DNA from: Halobium salinum | Lineage (GTDB): Archaea > Halobacteriota > Halobacteria > Halobacteriales > Haloferacaceae | Direction: 5' to 3' | Assembly: GCF_026586625.1 (NCBI RefSeq) | Contig: NZ_JAODIW010000010.1 | Location: forward strand, 520,755 to 584,754 | Length of the DNA: 64,000 nucleotides | In this document: positions 37,094 to 46,895 of the stretch, one piece after another | Numbering within the stretch: the stretch's first letter is position 1 | How the letters are laid out: every line of letters begins with the position of its first letter | Program-made: the position numbers and the translations under genes | The notes under the pieces: generated by a model | What the model was told of the DNA's origin: nothing | Databases searched by the model: none | What the model saw: the letters and a program-made list of their open reading frames with translations, nothing else

Positions 37094-38365
37094 ATGTCGG
37101 ACACGATATTCGGCACGAGAGAACAGCTCCGGGACACGGCGAGCGGCTTCTTCCAGCAATACGGACTCGCGTTCGTGATGGTGGCGAGCGTGGTCGGAGC
37201 CGGCTCGATATTCGTCGCCAGCTCCGTCGGGATTCAGTACGGCTACACCCTCATCTGGGGATTCGTCGCCGCGGCGCTCATCGGCGTCATGGCCCAAGAT
37301 ATGAGCGCCCGGCTGGGCATCTTCGGCGAGCCGCTCGGGACGTTCATGCGCCGGAAGTTCGGCGAGCGCGTCTCGCTCGCGCTCGGGGCAGTGCTGTCGG
37401 TGGGGGCCATCCTCTGGACCATCGAACTGACCGCCGCGACGGCGAAAGGCGTCTCCGTGTTGCTCGGCGGCGCGGTCGGCTGGCAGCCGCTGGCTGTCGC
37501 CGTCACCGTCCTCGCCGTGCTGACGGGCGTGCTGAACTACGAGGGACTGGAGCGGGTGATGACTGCCATGCTGTTCGTTCTACTGGCGGCGTACCTGCTC
37601 GTCGCCGGGACGAGTTCACCGTCGGCCCTCGGCATCGCGGGCGGGTTCGTCCCGTCGCTCCCCGGCGGGTCGCTGACGCTCGTGGCCTCCGTCGTCGGCT
37701 CGACCGCTATCTGGTCGAACTTCTTCCTCGAGTCGAACCTCGTCGCGGAGAAGGGGTGGACGAGCGCCGAGGACGTGCCGACGATGCGCAAGGACCTCGC
37801 CATGGGGTACGGCATCGCGGTCGTGCTCATCCTCTCCGTGCTCGTCGTCTCGGCGGCCGTCCTCCGACCGGCCGGCTACGAGGAACTCAGGAGTTTCATC
37901 ACCCCAGGACGGGCCCTCGGGAGCACGATGGGGCAGTGGGCGACGGTGCTGTTCCTGTTCGGAGCGTCCGCGGCCGCGTTCAACAGCATCATGCCGGTGA
38001 TGTGGGCGGTCGTCTACCTGTTCCAGAACGCGCGCGGCGTCGCGGTCGACAGCGCGAACCGCTCGTTCAAGCTCATCTACGCCGTCGGGACGGCCTCGGG
38101 ACTCCTCGCGCCGCTCGTCAACGTCGTCTTCGGACTGAGCGTCGTCGAGATGGTCGTGCTGTTCGCCGCCTACAGCGGCATCGTCAGTCTCCCGATCACC
38201 GCGGTGTTGCTGTTCTGGGCGGTGAACGACGAGGAGGTGATGGGCGACCGGACGAACGGTCTGGGGCTGAACGCGCTCAACGCGGTGCTCGTGGTGCTGG
38301 CGTTCGTGCTCGCGGCCATCTCGCTGCCGGGGTTCCTGCAGTCCTTCGGCGAGATTCTGCTCTGA
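37094..38365 (+). CDS. NRAMP-fold transporter with altered metal motifs
   Basis: 423 aa, about 11 helices. Helix 1 and the following IQYGYTLIWGF align well with NRAMP transporters (usual GxxFGYxLLW). The signature DPGN of TM1 is replaced by GAGS (residues 35-38), and the MPH of TM6 by IWS (in STAIWSNFFLES). Both motifs normally hold the divalent metal, so the substrate is likely different. The start is uncertain: a GTG at 37010 in the same frame would add 28 residues. No metal regulator box is visible upstream. Confidence 0.78.
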   Translation: MSDTIFGTREQLRDTASGFFQQYGLAFVMVASVVGAGSIFVASSVGIQYGYTLIWGFVAAALIGVMAQDMSARLGIFGEPLGTFMRRKFGERVSLALGAVLSVGAILWTIELTAATAKGVSVLLGGAVGWQPLAVAVTVLAVLTGVLNYEGLERVMTAMLFVLLAAYLLVAGTSSPSALGIAGGFVPSLPGGSLTLVASVVGSTAIWSNFFLESNLVAEKGWTSAEDVPTMRKDLAMGYGIAVVLILSVLVVSAAVLRPAGYEELRSFITPGRALGSTMGQWATVLFLFGASAAAFNSIMPVMWAVVYLFQNARGVAVDSANRSFKLIYAVGTASGLLAPLVNVVFGLSVVEMVVLFAAYSGIVSLPITAVLLFWAVNDEEVMGDRTNGLGLNALNAVLVVLAFVLAAISLPGFLQSFGEILL

Positions 38366-38471: not shown

Positions 38472-38681
38472 ATGCCAGACGCCGGTGCCCCCCTCGGGTT
38501 CGACGTGGCGACGACGCTCGTCGGCTCCGGGCTGACGCTCCTCCTGACCGCGGGTGTGATTCGATACGGTGACCAGGTGACGACGCTCCCCCGGGAGGTC
38601 ATCTACGCCGGCGGCGGCGGCGCGTTGCTCGTCCTCGGTGTCCTGCTCGGGACGGTGTTGGTGGCGATGGGGCACCGCTGA
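38472..38681 (+). CDS. Small two-helix membrane protein
   Basis: 69 aa with two hydrophobic helices (VATTLVGSGLTLLLTAGVI and GGGGALLVLGVLLGTVLVAM) joined by a short loop. A CTTTTCC box lies about 30 bp before ATG 38472. No family recognised. An upstream in-frame ATG (38421) would add a basic leader. Confidence 0.5.
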   Translation: MPDAGAPLGFDVATTLVGSGLTLLLTAGVIRYGDQVTTLPREVIYAGGGGALLVLGVLLGTVLVAMGHR

Positions 38682-39554: not shown

Positions 39555-41162
39555 TTACCGCCGCCAGTACTCCGGCGTGAACAGTACGAGCACCGGAATG
39601 ATCTCCAGCCGGCCGAACCACATCAGCGCGACCATGAACAGCTTCGAGAGGTCCGAGAGGCTGGTGTACCCACCCATCGGCCCGGCGAAGCCGAACGCCG
39701 GCCCGACGTTACCGATGGAGGTTGCCGCGATGCTCATCGCCTCGAGTACGGATAGCGACTGCTCGACCCGCAGGGAGTCGAAGAACAGCAGCGCTGCGGC
39801 GACGAAGAAGATGACGATGTAGAGGACGGTGAACGCGTAGATGCCGCGGATGGCGCGCTCGTCGACCGGGCGGCCGGCGAGCCGGACCGGGCGGACGGCG
39901 TCGGGGTGAGACGTGGTGAACAGCTCCCGGCGGATGGACTTCAGGATGACGTACCAGCGGACGATTTTGATGCCCCCACCGGTCGAGCCGGCGGAGCCGC
40001 CGATGAACATCGCAAAGAGCAGGACGTACTGTGCGAGCGGACTCCAGGCGTTGAAGTCGGTGCTCGCGTACCCCGTCGTCGTCACGATGGAGACGACCTG
40101 GAAGGCGGCGTGACGGAGCGCGGGTTCGACGTGGCCGATAGCGGCGTCGCGCACCTGCTCCAGGTACGTCAGGTCGTACGTCGAGCCGCCGGGGGGTACC
40201 CCCGTCGCGAACCCCGGTCCGGCGAACAGCACGGCGGCGAGGACGGCCGTCAGCGTCGCGAGGATGCCGACGTAGAACTTGAACTCGGAGTCCCGCAGCA
40301 GGCGCTTCGGTTCGCCGGTGAGCACGTGCCAGAACAGCGCGAAGTTCGTCCCGGCGGCGACCATGAACGGGATGATTACCCACTGCACCGCGGCGGAGAA
40401 CGCCTCGATACTGCGGGCCTCGGGGGAGAACCCGCCGGTCGGCATCGTCGTCAGCGCGTGGGCGACGGCGTTGTAGGCGGTCATGTTCGGCGCCATCCCG
40501 ACGACGTTCAGCCCGTACAGGAGGAGCGCCTGGAGGACGGTGAAGCCGAGGTAGGCGCCCCAGAGCGCCCGGGCCGTCTCGGCGATGCGCGGGGTGAGCT
40601 TCTCGATGCCGGGGCCGGGCGCCTCGGCGTCCATCAACTGGGCCCCCCCGACCGAGAGTTCGGGGAGGATGGCGACGGCGAGGACGACGATGCCCATCCC
40701 GCCGAGCCACTGGGTGAGTTGGCGCCACATCATCACGCCGCGGGTGTGGGTGTCGAAGCTGATGTCGCCGACGACGGTCGCCCCGGTGGTCGTGAAGCCG
40801 GACATGGACTCGAAGAGCGCGTTCGCCGGGCTCCCGAGCGTCGAGGCGGGTGCGACGGGTGCGAGCAGTCCGGGGACCCCGTGGGCCTCGACGAGGTACG
40901 GAATGGCCCCGACGAGGGCGACGGCGAACCAGGTCAGGGCGACCATCAGGAACCCCTCGCGGGCGCGGAGGTCGGGGTCGGCGTCGAGCCGTTCGAGGCC
41001 GACGCCGAGCAGGAAGGTGACGGTCATCGTGACGAGGAAGGGAGCGACTGTCTCGCCGTAGGCGAGGGCGATGCCGAGCGGGAAGAGCAGCGGGACGGCG
41101 AGGTACTTCAGCACGCTCCCGACGAGGCTCAGACTCGCCCGGTAGTCCACGCGGATTCTCAT
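39555..41162 (-). CDS. trkH: Potassium uptake channel subunit (TrkH family)
   Basis: 535 aa. Four M1-P-M2 repeats are visible, with pore loops such as ESMSGFTTTGATV, HALTTMPTGGFSPE, FQVVSIVTTTGYAST and AMSIAATSIGNVGP. The gate-region GGSAGSTGGGIKIVRW is conserved in TrkH/KtrB. It imports K+, the main compatible solute of haloarchaea. It is transcribed after trkA (gap 135 bp), so the two probably form a complex. Confidence 0.95.
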   Translation of the reverse strand: MRIRVDYRASLSLVGSVLKYLAVPLLFPLGIALAYGETVAPFLVTMTVTFLLGVGLERLDADPDLRAREGFLMVALTWFAVALVGAIPYLVEAHGVPGLLAPVAPASTLGSPANALFESMSGFTTTGATVVGDISFDTHTRGVMMWRQLTQWLGGMGIVVLAVAILPELSVGGAQLMDAEAPGPGIEKLTPRIAETARALWGAYLGFTVLQALLLYGLNVVGMAPNMTAYNAVAHALTTMPTGGFSPEARSIEAFSAAVQWVIIPFMVAAGTNFALFWHVLTGEPKRLLRDSEFKFYVGILATLTAVLAAVLFAGPGFATGVPPGGSTYDLTYLEQVRDAAIGHVEPALRHAAFQVVSIVTTTGYASTDFNAWSPLAQYVLLFAMFIGGSAGSTGGGIKIVRWYVILKSIRRELFTTSHPDAVRPVRLAGRPVDERAIRGIYAFTVLYIVIFFVAAALLFFDSLRVEQSLSVLEAMSIAATSIGNVGPAFGFAGPMGGYTSLSDLSKLFMVALMWFGRLEIIPVLVLFTPEYWRR

Positions 41163-41297
41163 ACGACACGCTCCCGGCGGTTCACGTTCGTGGGTCCGGT
41201 GTCACCGGCTTGAATGTATTGAAACCCGACAGCCCGCCGCTGACGGCTCGACGGTCGACGGCGTGGCGGGACGGAGCGTGGCGACGCGCGCCGTCGT

Positions 41298-42635
41298 TCA
41301 GAGCAGGAGGCCGACGTCCTCGGCGACGGACGCGTCGACGAAGACGACGACGTGGTCGCCGGCTTCGATGACCGTGTCCCCGCGGGGAGTGATGAGTTCG
41401 CGGCCGCGCGTGATGGCGCCGATGACGACCCCCTGCGGGAGTTCGCCGACGGACTCCTGGATGGGTTTCCCGGCCAGCGCCGAGGCGTCGTCGATCTCTA
41501 TCTCCAACACCTCGGCCTTGTCCGACTCGATGAGCGCGACGTTCTCGGCGCCGCCCTCCCGGGTGAATCGGGTAATCTCCTCGGCGACGACCTCGCGGGG
41601 GGAGACGCCCACGTCGACGCCGACGGTCTCGAACAGTTCGACGTAGGCGGTGTTGTCGATGACGGCGACGGTGCGCTCGACGCCCAGTCGCCGGGCGAGC
41701 AGACAGACGAGCAGGTTCTTCTCGTCGGAGTCGAGCGCCGAGACGACCATGTCGGCCTCGCCGACGTGCTCGCGTTCGAGGAAGGCCATGTCCGTGGCGT
41801 CCGACTCCATGACGACCGTCCCGGGGAGTTCCTCGGCGCACTCCCGAGCGCGGTCGGGGTCCTGTTCGATGAGCCGCGGGCGGAACCCTCGGTCCTCGAG
41901 CAGTCGGGCGACGTGGTAACCGATTTCGCTCCCGCCGACGACGACGACTTCCTCCGCCGTTCCGGGGGACTCCTTCGGGGCCACGTCGCGGGCGAACCCC
42001 TGGACGGACTTCGGCGAGCCGATGACGACGACGCGGTCGCCGGGGTTGATGACCGTCTCCCCGCGGGGAATCTCGACGGAGCCGTTCCGGAGGATGGCCG
42101 CGAAGGTGAGCGAGTCGTAGCGGTCCGCCTCCCGTATCGTCTGGTTTGCGACCGGGGAGCTCTCGCCGACCTCGAACTCGGCCATCTGGACTCGGCCGCC
42201 GGCGAAGGGGTCCACGTCGCGCGCGGCCGGGAGGCCGACGACGCGGACGATAGACTCGGCCGACAGGAGGTTCGTACACACCATGAAGTCGATGCCGAAC
42301 GCCTTCTCGGAGCGCTCCCACGTCCGGAGGTACTCGGTGTTCTTGATGCGGGCGATGGTGAACGCGTCGCTGATGGCCTTCGCCGTCGAGCAGACGACGA
42401 TGTTGGTCTCGTCGTTGTCGGTGGAGGCAATTACCATGTCCGCCTGGCCGATGCCGGCGTCCTCGAGCGTCGAGACGGCCGTGCCGTCGCCTTGGATGGC
42501 GAGCACGTCGAGCGAGTACGTCAGCTCGTCGGCGCGCGCCTGGTCCTGTTCGATGACGACGACCTCGTGGGTGTCGTCCAGGTCTGCGGCGATGCTCGAG
42601 CCGACCTGTCCGGCCCCGACGATTATCACGCGCAC
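41298..42635 (-). CDS. trkA: Trk potassium uptake regulatory subunit (RCK/TrkA)
   Basis: 445 aa built from two RCK units. The Rossmann motifs are IIVGAGQVGSSIAADL (residues 3-18) and VVVGGSEIGYHVARLL near 230; each is followed by a TrkA_C domain (PRGETVINPGDRVVVIG and PRGDTVIEAGDHVVVFV). It binds nucleotides and gates TrkH. The start is GTG 42635. Confidence 0.95.
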   Translation of the reverse strand: MRVIIVGAGQVGSSIAADLDDTHEVVVIEQDQARADELTYSLDVLAIQGDGTAVSTLEDAGIGQADMVIASTDNDETNIVVCSTAKAISDAFTIARIKNTEYLRTWERSEKAFGIDFMVCTNLLSAESIVRVVGLPAARDVDPFAGGRVQMAEFEVGESSPVANQTIREADRYDSLTFAAILRNGSVEIPRGETVINPGDRVVVIGSPKSVQGFARDVAPKESPGTAEEVVVVGGSEIGYHVARLLEDRGFRPRLIEQDPDRARECAEELPGTVVMESDATDMAFLEREHVGEADMVVSALDSDEKNLLVCLLARRLGVERTVAVIDNTAYVELFETVGVDVGVSPREVVAEEITRFTREGGAENVALIESDKAEVLEIEIDDASALAGKPIQESVGELPQGVVIGAITRGRELITPRGDTVIEAGDHVVVFVDASVAEDVGLLL

Positions 42636-43393: not shown

Positions 43394-44605
43394 ATGGACA
43401 GACGAAAGTTCCTGGCCGGGGCGGGGACGTTCGCCGCGGCACTGGCTGGCTGTACCGGCGACTCGGGTAGCGGCGCAAACGAGACTGGCGGGTCGAACGC
43501 GACGGCGGAGTCGACTACGACCGCCGAGACAACCGCGTCGACGACGGAGTCGACCGCGACTTCGGACGGGGAGGAGACGACGGCGTCCGGCGGCTCCTAC
43601 ACCGTCTCGATGGCGCCGGTCGGCGACGTGACGTTCGAGTCGGTCCCGGAGACGTGGTCGACGTACTTCCCCGGTTACGCCGACATGGGTGTGGCACTCG
43701 GGATGGCCGACAGCCTACAGGCGGTCGGCAACGTCGGGCGGTACTACACCAGCTACTACGACGAACTCGACGGCGTCTCCCTCGACAAGGAGCGCCTGAC
43801 CGAGCAGGTCGGCGACAGCGGCATCGACAAAGAGATTTACTACGAACTCGACAGCGACGTCCACCTGACGGACCCACGCTGGCTGTCGAACAACTCCTTC
43901 TTCGGGCTGGAAGCGGCGGACGTCGACGCCATCGCGGAGGAGGTCGGTCCCTTCGTCGGCAACACCATCTTCCGGCGGACCGACGAGTGGCACGACTACC
44001 GCTACTACACCATGTACGAGGCCTTCGAGAAGGTCGCACAGGTGTTCCAGCGGACCGACCGCTACGAGGCGTTCTCCGCCGTCCACGACTCGATGCTCTC
44101 CAACGTCCAGGGGAAGCTCCCGACCGCCGAGGAGCGCCCGGCCGGCCTGCTGGTGTTCGCCGCGAGCGACGAACCCGAGACGTTCTCGCCGTACCGCATC
44201 GCGGACCGGGGGACGAACAAGAAACACTTCCACGACCTCGGCGTGAGCGACGCGCTCGACGGCACCGGCGTCGAGGGGCTGTCGACGACCGAGCGCGGGA
44301 AGATAGATTACGAGACCATGCTCCAGGTCGACCCCGAGGTGCTGTTCGTTCGCGGCCACGAGACGAAGAGCCGCGCGGAGTTCCAGGACACCGTCGTCGC
44401 GTTCATGGAGAACCACGACGTCGCCAGCGAGCTGACCGCGGTGCAGAACGGCGGCGTGTACCGGGGCGGTCCCATCTACCAGGGCCCCATTCAGAACCTC
44501 TTCATCACCGAGCGGTTCGCGAAGCGGCTGTACCCCGACGCGTTCGGTGAGGGCGAGCTGTTCGACCGCGCCGAAGTGGCGGCGGCTATCAACGGCGAGG
44601 CCTGA
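43394..44605 (+). CDS. Siderophore-binding lipoprotein, first copy
   Basis: 403 aa. MDRRKFLAGAGTF...LAGC is a Tat lipoprotein signal. A Ser/Thr/Glu linker (about 25-60) precedes a two-lobed periplasmic-binding fold of the Fe3+-siderophore class (PF01497-like), with GYADMGVALGMADSL, YYTMYEAFEKVAQVFQRTDRYEAF and QVDPEVLFVRGHE. It captures iron chelates outside the membrane for the FecCD/FecE importer. ATG 43394 follows the GTG at 43379; ATG keeps the Tat motif first. Iron boxes A1 and A2 flank its TATA box. Confidence 0.9.
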   Translation: MDRRKFLAGAGTFAAALAGCTGDSGSGANETGGSNATAESTTTAETTASTTESTATSDGEETTASGGSYTVSMAPVGDVTFESVPETWSTYFPGYADMGVALGMADSLQAVGNVGRYYTSYYDELDGVSLDKERLTEQVGDSGIDKEIYYELDSDVHLTDPRWLSNNSFFGLEAADVDAIAEEVGPFVGNTIFRRTDEWHDYRYYTMYEAFEKVAQVFQRTDRYEAFSAVHDSMLSNVQGKLPTAEERPAGLLVFAASDEPETFSPYRIADRGTNKKHFHDLGVSDALDGTGVEGLSTTERGKIDYETMLQVDPEVLFVRGHETKSRAEFQDTVVAFMENHDVASELTAVQNGGVYRGGPIYQGPIQNLFITERFAKRLYPDAFGEGELFDRAEVAAAINGEA

Positions 44606-44626
44606 ACCCGCCGGCCGAAGGTCACG

Positions 44627-44646
44627 ATTTTAGGCTAGCCTAAAAT
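44627..44646. promoter_or_regulatory. Iron-box-like palindrome B1 (perfect)
   Basis: ATTTTAGGCTAGCCTAAAAT is a perfect 20-bp palindrome. It lies just upstream of the TATA box TTTTATAC (44656-44663) of the second siderophore-binding gene and is the best copy of the repeated box. Confidence 0.8.
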
Positions 44647-44664
44647 GCGGCGCATTTTTATACA

Positions 44665-44680
44665 TTTAGGTAGGCCTAAA
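44665..44680. promoter_or_regulatory. Iron-box-like palindrome B2
   Basis: TTTAGGTAGGCCTAAA, 36 bp from box B1, between the TATA box and ATG 44685. It would block initiation when occupied. Confidence 0.75.
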
Positions 44681-44684
44681 ACAC

Positions 44685-45926
44685 ATGACGGACGACAGCG
44701 GTCGGACGAGACGGCGGTTTCTGACGGCGAGCGGTGCCATCGTGGGCGCCGGACTCGCCGGTTGTACCGGCTCGACGACCGACTCCCCCGCGGCGGCGAA
44801 CGGGACGGCGGCGACCGGCACCACGTCGGCAACGACGGGAGACGAATCGACGGAGGGCACGACGACCGACGAAGGGTCGGCGGACGACGGCTCCTACTCG
44901 GTGTCGATGGCGCCGACGGGGACCGTCGAGTTCGACGCGGTCCCGGAGGAGTGGGTCACGTACAAGACCGGCTACGGTGACATGGGCATCGCGCTCGGGA
45001 TGGCGGACGGACTCGTCGGTCTCGACCGGCCCGAGGAGTCGCTCGCGCTGTTGGAGGAGCGCTTCTACAGCCAGCTTCCGGGGTTCGAACTCGACACGGA
45101 CGGCATCACGAGCATCCGGAGCGACGACGCCATCGACAAGGAGGTGTTCTACGAACTGGGCGCGGACCTCCACCTGATGGACCCGAACCTCCCGCTCGTC
45201 TACTTCGAGTGGGACGAGGCCGACGTCGAGGAGGTTTCGGAGACCGTCGCTCCGTTCTTCGGCAACTTCATCCGTCGACCGCGTGACGACGCGTGGGGCG
45301 AGGAGTACGCGTTCTACACGCTCTACGAGGCGTTCGAGAAGGTCTCGAAGGTGTTCCGACGAGGAGACCGCTACGAGGCGTTCGCCGAGGTGCACGACGG
45401 GATGCACACTCGCATCGCCGACGCGTTGTCCCCGGAAAGCGAGCGTCCCTCGGTGGGCCTCCTCAACGGCGGCTCCGACCCCTCGAAGGGGAAGTTCTAC
45501 GCGATGGACCCGACGGCGAAGGGGTACGAGATGAAGCAGTACCGCGACCTCGGTATCCGGAACGCCTTCGAGGGCGTCGAGACCGGCGAGTACGGGCTGG
45601 TCGACTGGGAGACGCTGCTCGAGGTCGACCCCGAAATCCTGATTTTCCACTGGGGCGTGACGTACCCGACCGACGAGTTCCGGTCGCAGTTCGTCGACCC
45701 GATGCGAAACGACGACATCGGCCAGCGGCTCACGGCGGTGCAGGAGGGGAACCTCTACCCCGGCGGCACCGCCGAGCAGGGGCCCATCATCAACCTCTTC
45801 CAGACGGAGATGCTGGCGCGCCAGCAGTACCCCGACGAGTTCGGCGAGTTCACCGGCTTCGGGACGCCCGAGGACCCGCTGTTCGACCGGAAGCGCGTCG
45901 CCGACATCGTCGCCGGGGACCTCTGA
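44685..45926 (+). CDS. Siderophore-binding lipoprotein, second copy
   Basis: 413 aa. Tat lipoprotein signal TRRRFLTASGAIVG...LAGC, then a linker rich in Thr/Ser/Asp and the same binding fold as the gene before it; for example FYTLYEAFEKVSKVFRRGDRYEAF differs in few positions from the first copy. TATA TTTTATAC is 25 bp from the ATG, so it is leaderless. Boxes B1 and B2 flank it. A tandem duplication: the two may bind different chelates or be dosage copies. Confidence 0.9.
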   Translation: MTDDSGRTRRRFLTASGAIVGAGLAGCTGSTTDSPAAANGTAATGTTSATTGDESTEGTTTDEGSADDGSYSVSMAPTGTVEFDAVPEEWVTYKTGYGDMGIALGMADGLVGLDRPEESLALLEERFYSQLPGFELDTDGITSIRSDDAIDKEVFYELGADLHLMDPNLPLVYFEWDEADVEEVSETVAPFFGNFIRRPRDDAWGEEYAFYTLYEAFEKVSKVFRRGDRYEAFAEVHDGMHTRIADALSPESERPSVGLLNGGSDPSKGKFYAMDPTAKGYEMKQYRDLGIRNAFEGVETGEYGLVDWETLLEVDPEILIFHWGVTYPTDEFRSQFVDPMRNDDIGQRLTAVQEGNLYPGGTAEQGPIINLFQTEMLARQQYPDEFGEFTGFGTPEDPLFDRKRVADIVAGDL

Positions 45927-45932
45927 ATAGCG

Positions 45933-46895
45933 ATGACGACGAAGCCGACGGAGACTGCCGCGAACCACCCCGAGTCGCCCGTCGACCGCGACGTCGTCGT
46001 GGTCGGCGGCGGCGCGGGCGGGCTCTCGGCGGCGGTGTTCACCGCACGCTACGGTCTCGACACGCTGGTGGTCGCTCGCGGCCGGTCGGCCATCCACCAG
46101 TGTGCACATCTCGAGAACTACCTGGGGTTCCCGGGCGGCGTCACCCCCGAGCGGTTCGTCGCGCTCGGCCGCACGCAGGTCGAAGGCGAGGGCGGAGAGG
46201 TGGTCGAGGACCGCGTCGTCCGCGTCGCTCCGGCGAGCGCGGCGGGGGACGGTGCGTCCGACCCGGTCGACGCGGCCGGCGGCGCCGAACCTGCTCGATT
46301 CCGTGTCGAGACCGAAGACGGCCTGACGCTGGGGGCGACGTACGTCGTCGCCGCCTCGGCGTACGACGGCGAGTTCCTCGACGCGTTCGCGGACGACCTC
46401 GACCGCGACGAGGAGACGGGGTTCCTCGCGACCGAAGCGGGTCGGACGCCGGTCGACGGCCTGTACGGCGTCGGCTGGTTGACCGACGAGACGGTCCACC
46501 AGGCGGTCGTCAACGCCGGTCACGGGGGACGGGTGGGAGTCGCACTCGCCCGTGACGACCTCCGCGAGCGGTACTGGGACGCCGTCGCCGACCGGTACGT
46601 CGACTGGGTCGTCGAGGAGGGTCGGTACGGCGGCGACGGCTGGGAGGAACACGTCGACGAGTGGTTCGAGTCGGAGATGCTCGACGGTGTCGACGTGGAC
46701 CCCGAGACCGCCCGACGTGCCCGGGACGACCTCGCCGCGGAGTTCCTCGACCGACAGCTCTCGTCCGACGAGAAGCGCCGGCGGGACCGACTCGGACAGC
46801 GACGCCTGCTCGAAGCGCTCGACGACGAGGTCGTCCGGAACTACGCGGCCGAACTCGACGGCGAGGACGGTACCGTTTCCGTGAACGAGGGCTGA
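45933..46895 (+). CDS. FAD-dependent oxidoreductase (TrxR-like), iron cluster
   Basis: 320 aa. FAD Rossmann VVVVGGGAGGLSAAVFTARYG (residues about 20-40), the ENYLGFPGG segment, and VDGLYGVGWLTDETVHQAVVNAGHG binding FAD. It resembles thioredoxin reductase but lacks the CxxC pair and the second GGGDSA motif, and has a C-terminal helical extension of about 100 aa. It starts 6 bp after the second binding protein, an operon. Reduction of ferric siderophores is a plausible but unproven job. Confidence 0.82.
   Translation: MTTKPTETAANHPESPVDRDVVVVGGGAGGLSAAVFTARYGLDTLVVARGRSAIHQCAHLENYLGFPGGVTPERFVALGRTQVEGEGGEVVEDRVVRVAPASAAGDGASDPVDAAGGAEPARFRVETEDGLTLGATYVVAASAYDGEFLDAFADDLDRDEETGFLATEAGRTPVDGLYGVGWLTDETVHQAVVNAGHGGRVGVALARDDLRERYWDAVADRYVDWVVEEGRYGGDGWEEHVDEWFESEMLDGVDVDPETARRARDDLAAEFLDRQLSSDEKRRRDRLGQRRLLEALDDEVVRNYAAELDGEDGTVSVNEG

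Follow-up and report, generated by a model that had tools for sequence, protein, structure and literature searches.

An IWS-type paralogue in a haloarchaeal clade of G-motif Nramp-related carriers

In a rooted phylogeny of 36,700-97,939 sequences, paraphyletic Nramp-related proteins without DPGN and MPH, including the 'G-motif' groups, were placed outside the canonical Nramps, and parsimony indicated that the canonical Nramps gained the metal motif later (PMC12873925). This motif-less outgroup has been named 'orphan' by Cellier (PMC10606218, PMC9606685). Whether its members carry a metal or an organic substrate is disputed. YcsG (MntG) is MntR-regulated, raises cellular Mn2+ when overexpressed and was reported to be a Mn2+ importer (PMC10448178), whereas 5-oxoproline has been given as the substrate of the PxpT/YcsG type, a PxpT homologue being required by C. 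glutamicum for growth on this compound (PMC13274462). MumT, encoded in a urea-metabolism operon, was likewise reported to raise Mn2+; it has low similarity to known NRAMPs and is perhaps motif-less (PMC5050338). The NRMTs have an altered site and retain the TM1 Asp in a DxxG-TxxA/T signature (PMC8806188). No relevant literature on a haloarchaeal Nramp or an Nramp-TauE pair was found.

We analyzed a stretch of 64,000 nucleotides from Halobium salinum (hereafter, the window), in which an uninterrupted open reading frame on the plus strand (37094..38365; ATG at 37094, stop at 38365) encodes a protein of 423 amino acids. Its sole match in Pfam-A is PF01566 (Nramp; 162.1 bits, cut-off 29.8, residues 43-389), and all 15 members of its clade that were tested match the same family. 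A search of all PDB chains with the clade profile matched 21 distinct sequences, every one of them NRAMP-family, with EleNRMT (7qia, 97 bits) as the top match. Given that only NRAMP-family structures were matched and given the PF01566 score, it is safe to assign the protein to the Nramp family in the broad sense. This bears out the NRAMP fold proposed in an earlier sequence-only reading, and another LeuT-fold family as nearest relative was ruled out by Pfam, by the clade matches and by the profile search, which matched no other LeuT-fold family among the PDB chains. An AlphaFold2 model built from two sequences (P0001 and L001) had a pLDDT of 36.5, too low to use. The protein also scores above the cut-off of NCBIfam NF037982, 'Nramp family divalent metal transporter' (59.7 bits, cut-off 50), which is why its relatives are labelled as divalent metal transporters; for the window gene, this automatic label is probably wrong.

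A multiple alignment with E. coli MntH showed how far the site differs from the canonical one (all features on the plus strand). The unwound region of TM1, DPGN in canonical members, is G35-A36-G37-S38 in the window protein (37196..37207; D34->G35, P35->A36, G36->G37 and N37->S38). The unwound region of TM6 is S203-T-A-I206-W207-S208 (37700..37717), compared with A206-T-V/I-M209-P-H211 in MntH (A206->S203, M209->I206, P210->W207 and H211->S208) and TTALWP in the GSGS clade introduced below. In TM3 (E111-L112, 37424..37429), the canonical Glu (E112 of MntH) is replaced by Leu, as in all GSGS and IWS sequences; the adjacent E111, the sole nearby carboxylate of the site, is conserved among the IWS copies, whereas about half of the GSGS sequences have Gly there. 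None of the metal-binding or adjacent side chains (D34, N37, A206, M209, H211 and E112 in E. coli numbering) is kept in the window protein. Profile-profile alignment with canonical MntH runs through the TM1 and TM6 motifs without a gap, so that the replacements first read from the sequence, DPGN by GAGS (35-38) and MPH by IWS (206-208), proved exact, and a shifted alignment restoring either motif was looked for and ruled out. The change is more than chance, because GxGS and the TM6 motif are nearly invariant across the clade and the IWS copies are under purifying selection (see below). With both motifs absent, the substrate is probably something other than Mn2+ or Fe2+, as the sequence-only reading had suggested. 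A haloarchaeal Na2-like site in TM8 (A294-x-x-N297-S298) was rejected as a sign of Na+ coupling, its Ser being equally present in canonical Nramps.

Among the described groups, canonical MntH and DMT1 share the fold and the family with the window protein and align with it helix by helix from end to end, but every metal-site residue is replaced, and the canonical SLC11/NRAMP features, DxxN, A/CxxM with MPH, and the TM3 Glu (E134 of DraNramp), are all absent. EleNRMT shares the fold, the family and the fact of an altered site. NRMT had been put forward as the comparison to make, and the comparison confirmed an altered site but not one of the NRMT type, since the TM1 Asp is Gly and GxxS-SxxI replaces DxxG-TxxA/T. 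Nor is NRMT the nearest group: profile comparison of the window clade by hhalign favoured the G-motif groups, namely a second haloarchaeal clade, GAGS2 (E 1.5e-49), and the GPGT clade with a pxp-linked Nramp-like protein (1e-39), over NRMT (8e-22) and the canonical members (2e-20). The published description of the G-motif/orphan SLC11 outgroup matches the protein, which has PF01566, a GxG-type TM1 with Gly in place of the Asp, and no DPGN, MPH, or other canonical metal or proton-pathway residue. What sets the window clade apart within this outgroup is that it comprises a haloarchaeal GSGS/LWPNFF group with an IWS sub-branch, and that the parent clade has a TauE/SafE partner.

In an unrooted FastTree phylogeny of 118 sequences, the window clade grouped with GAGS2 (support 0.997), apart from the canonical, NRMT and GPGT groups, which is compatible with the published rooted placement of motif-less proteins outside the canonical Nramps (PMC12873925). 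The metal residues are present in no clade sequence examined. Based on that rooted phylogeny, our own unrooted tree and the order of the hhalign values, it is more likely that this lineage never had the metal motif than that it lost it, and the loss originally proposed is doubtful. A further haloarchaeal PF01566 group (L118, L119, L120 and L138), with GPAS in TM1 and HVT or HIT in TM6, forms a long branch.

A divalent cation, Mn2+ or Mg2+, could still be carried through a rebuilt site made of backbone carbonyls, S38, S203, S208 and E111; MntG is a proposed precedent, and NRMT, which takes a hydrated ion, a demonstrated one. The Mn2+ phenotype and MntR regulation of YcsG/MntG (PMC10448178) are in line with this, as is the EcoDMT variant N54G/A232T/M235A, NRMT-like with the Asp kept, which still moves Mn2+ (PMC8806188). 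The top structural match is a Mg2+ carrier, the IWS copies keep E111, and the window genome (G000, 99% complete) has three PF01566 genes, all of them G-motif and none with DPGN or MPH. However, the TM1 Asp shared by NRMT, NRAT and the canonical members is Gly here, about one parent-clade sequence in two has Gly at the E111 position, and no conserved metal-related gene was found adjoining the clade loci. We regard a rebuilt metal site as possible, at clearly less than even probability.

Scans of haloarchaeal genomes gathered at least 63 loci of the GSGS/LWPNFF clade (TM1 GSGS, TM6 LWPNFF). The IWS motif of TM6 occurs in six loci, those of the window, G060, G236 and G464-466 (three genomes of one genus), two of which (the window and G060) have GAGS in TM1 and four GSGS; all six genomes also hold a GSGS copy. 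The survey of GAGS/IWS proteins suggested at the outset thus showed that the window protein is not isolated, being one of six IWS copies within the larger GSGS/LWP family. Twelve fixed differences separate the IWS (n=6) from the GSGS (n=51) sequences, at positions 33, 34, 105, 116, 160, 203, 206, 208, 242, 246, 249 and 339; the first two (V33-V34, 37190..37195) are VV in all six IWS copies vs YF in the GSGS copies. Five of the twelve fall within 20 site positions (31-40 and 201-210; hypergeometric p 9e-5), a value that is indicative only, for related sequences and for positions that we chose around the two unwound segments of the known site. The IWS copy looks like a retuned duplicate that arose as a paralogue of the GSGS/LWPNFF carrier.

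Pairwise dN/dS among the six IWS copies ranges from 0.10 to 0.35, with synonymous sites partly saturated in the distant pairs, and the gene is accordingly maintained under purifying selection. This bears on the idea that the protein is a sensor, which had been raised in the sequence-only reading, or a degenerating copy that no longer transports. The absent motif and the isolation of the gene, which has no operon partner, would fit either, but a gene under such selection, with all helices kept, no extra domain, and changes that cluster in the site and are not scattered, makes both very improbable; nothing we found points to a sensor role.

The gene neighborhood differs between the clades. A TauE/SafE gene lies within two genes of 42 of the 63 GSGS genes, 7 of 25 GAGS2 genes, none of nine GPGT genes and none of the six IWS genes, including that of the window. 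The difference between IWS and GSGS genes has a Fisher p of 0.0025 with sequence kinship ignored, and the count for G236 is limited by a contig that stops 1.7 kb downstream of the IWS gene. Genes at the comparative loci were called with a simple codon-usage caller, checked at several loci against the annotation of plasmid records. TauE is mostly directly downstream of the GSGS gene on the same strand, with a gap of 3-18 bp, and is otherwise upstream or divergent. The partner TauEs form one subfamily, with a median identity of 53% whether GSGS partners are compared with one another or with those of GAGS2, and the two other TauE genes of the window genome are 28-32% identical to the partner TauE. 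That adjacency is kept while the position changes between genomes argues for the GSGS carrier and TauE being a functional unit. TauE/SafE is a broad family, and the name does not fix the substrate. The GAGS2 clade (L091-L095 and L155-L174; TM1 GAGS, TM6 VYYPNFF) is 26-30% identical to the window clade, and in a minority of its loci the same TauE subfamily adjoins, followed by a UspA gene.

Some neighbors of the unit hint at sulfur compounds, each in a restricted lineage. In G464-466, a GSGS carrier, an SsuA-family ABC transporter and then TauE are on the same strand, and in two of these clusters a TRAP transporter precedes the ABC genes; all three belong to one genus and so count as one evolutionary event. 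The binding protein is SsuA-like (TIGR01728 67 bits, below the cut-off of 163.5; PDB 3uif and 2x26). In one genus, the carrier-TauE unit sits between genes for AdoMet synthetase and ThiI. These two neighbors, as well as creatininase and O-methyltransferase, are lineage-restricted and were not counted as strong evidence, and we saw no enzyme of sulfonate degradation next to the clade genes. We found no informative neighbor of the window gene itself. Downstream on the same strand is a gene for a predicted membrane protein of 69 amino acids (38472-38681), which has no Pfam match and was not seen beside the other IWS copies. Farther along the window, TrkH and TrkA, for potassium uptake, are encoded together in a single run on the minus strand (39555-42635). 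Beyond them (43394-46895), two Peripla_BP_2 lipoproteins (PF01497), whose starts are TAT-like, are encoded in tandem ahead of a gene resembling FAD-dependent oxidoreductases; the lipoprotein pair probably binds siderophore or cobalamin.

The GPGT clade (TM1 GPGT, TM6 VVGYN) has different partners. In the haloarchaeal loci examined, HyuA and then HyuB (hydantoinase/oxoprolinase) directly follow the GPGT gene, including in the window genome (G000:C9:59781-60824; L044: 5971-10837), and a CopG-type gene often precedes it. On an L. plantarum plasmid (L209: 697-6971), a single run comprises pxpB/C together with biotin carboxylase-type genes, pxpA and, at its end, an Nramp-like gene; transposases flank this run, a mobile 5-oxoprolinase operon. 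The Nramp-like protein encoded there has GPGF in TM1, and its best match in our set is the GPGT clade at ~27% identity. An association that recurs with two unrelated enzyme systems for opening lactams favors an organic substrate for the GPGT clade and supports organic substrates among G-motif carriers; the HyuA/HyuB neighbors of the L044 gene suggest that it encodes a lactam/hydantoin importer, which is relevant to the MntG/PxpT dispute. At seven haloarchaeal 5-oxoprolinase (PxpA) loci examined, no adjacent Nramp gene was found. The window genome seems to be without a canonical Nramp manganese importer.

Import of 5-oxoproline, hydantoin or a similar lactam could also be considered for the window protein, which like PxpT/YcsG is an Nramp-related carrier without the canonical motif. 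Growth on 5-oxoproline depends on PxpT (PMC13274462), and the window genome holds both the HyuA/HyuB-linked GPGT gene and a PxpA/PxpB/PxpC-type locus. The two types differ, however, in TM1 (GPG vs GAG or GSG) and in TM6 (GPGT/VVGYN vs GAGS/IWSN for the two motifs), with one pxp-linked L. plantarum protein standing for the PxpT/YcsG type in the comparison. The PxpT/YcsG type adjoins 5-oxoprolinase genes, whereas no pxp, oxoprolinase or hydantoinase gene was found beside any GSGS or IWS locus, and the GPGT carrier of the window genome, by its position, already fills this role. We consider lactam import by the window protein unlikely.

In carriers of the LeuT fold, the substrate is bound between TM1 and TM6, where these helices are unwound. 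With the canonical divalent-metal site absent, an organic-solute site is the most likely alternative, and we give an even chance to the window protein being a LeuT-fold secondary carrier of a small organic solute, perhaps sulfur-containing, with shifted specificity. The organic nature of the substrate, judged from the residues of the site, has about the same standing; that it is a sulfur compound is a more tentative proposal. The protein, of the G-motif (outgroup) PF01566 branch, would be an alternating-access carrier. As in APC-type carriers, GAGS of TM1 and STAIWS of TM6 would most likely bind a small organic solute that may be anionic or contain sulfur; the site is rich in Gly, Ala and Ser on the TM1 side, has Ser, Ile, Trp and Ser on the TM6 side, and lacks Asp, Met and His. 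The parent GSGS carrier, usually in a two-gene unit with a TauE/SafE-type transporter, may form with it an uptake/efflux or a substrate/product pair. The IWS copy has left this partner and changed YF to VV and TxxLWP to SxxIWS, which may have made the pocket larger and more polar; loss of the partner together with changed site-lining residues points to a different, related substrate, and the concentration of changes in the site to a putative shift in specificity. By analogy, the reports that motif-less YcsG/MntG, and perhaps MumT, raise Mn2+ would speak against an organic substrate (PMC10448178, PMC5050338).

Haloarchaea hold several motif-less clades with distinct operon partners, GPGT with hydantoinase/oxoprolinase and both GSGS and GAGS2 with TauE/SafE. 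The name 'divalent metal cation transporter' given to such genes is unsupported by the binding site. The clade-specific partners give testable predictions, and some haloarchaea are genetically tractable; a genome with an IWS/GSGS pair offers a natural experiment in the retuning of a site. It is possible, though doubtful, that the two-gene Nramp-related/TauE unit of haloarchaea moves an organosulfur compound and that the IWS duplicate left the unit and took a new substrate. If this is true, the Nramp fold would include a branch for organic solutes, with the HyuAB-linked GPGT clade and PxpT as further cases.
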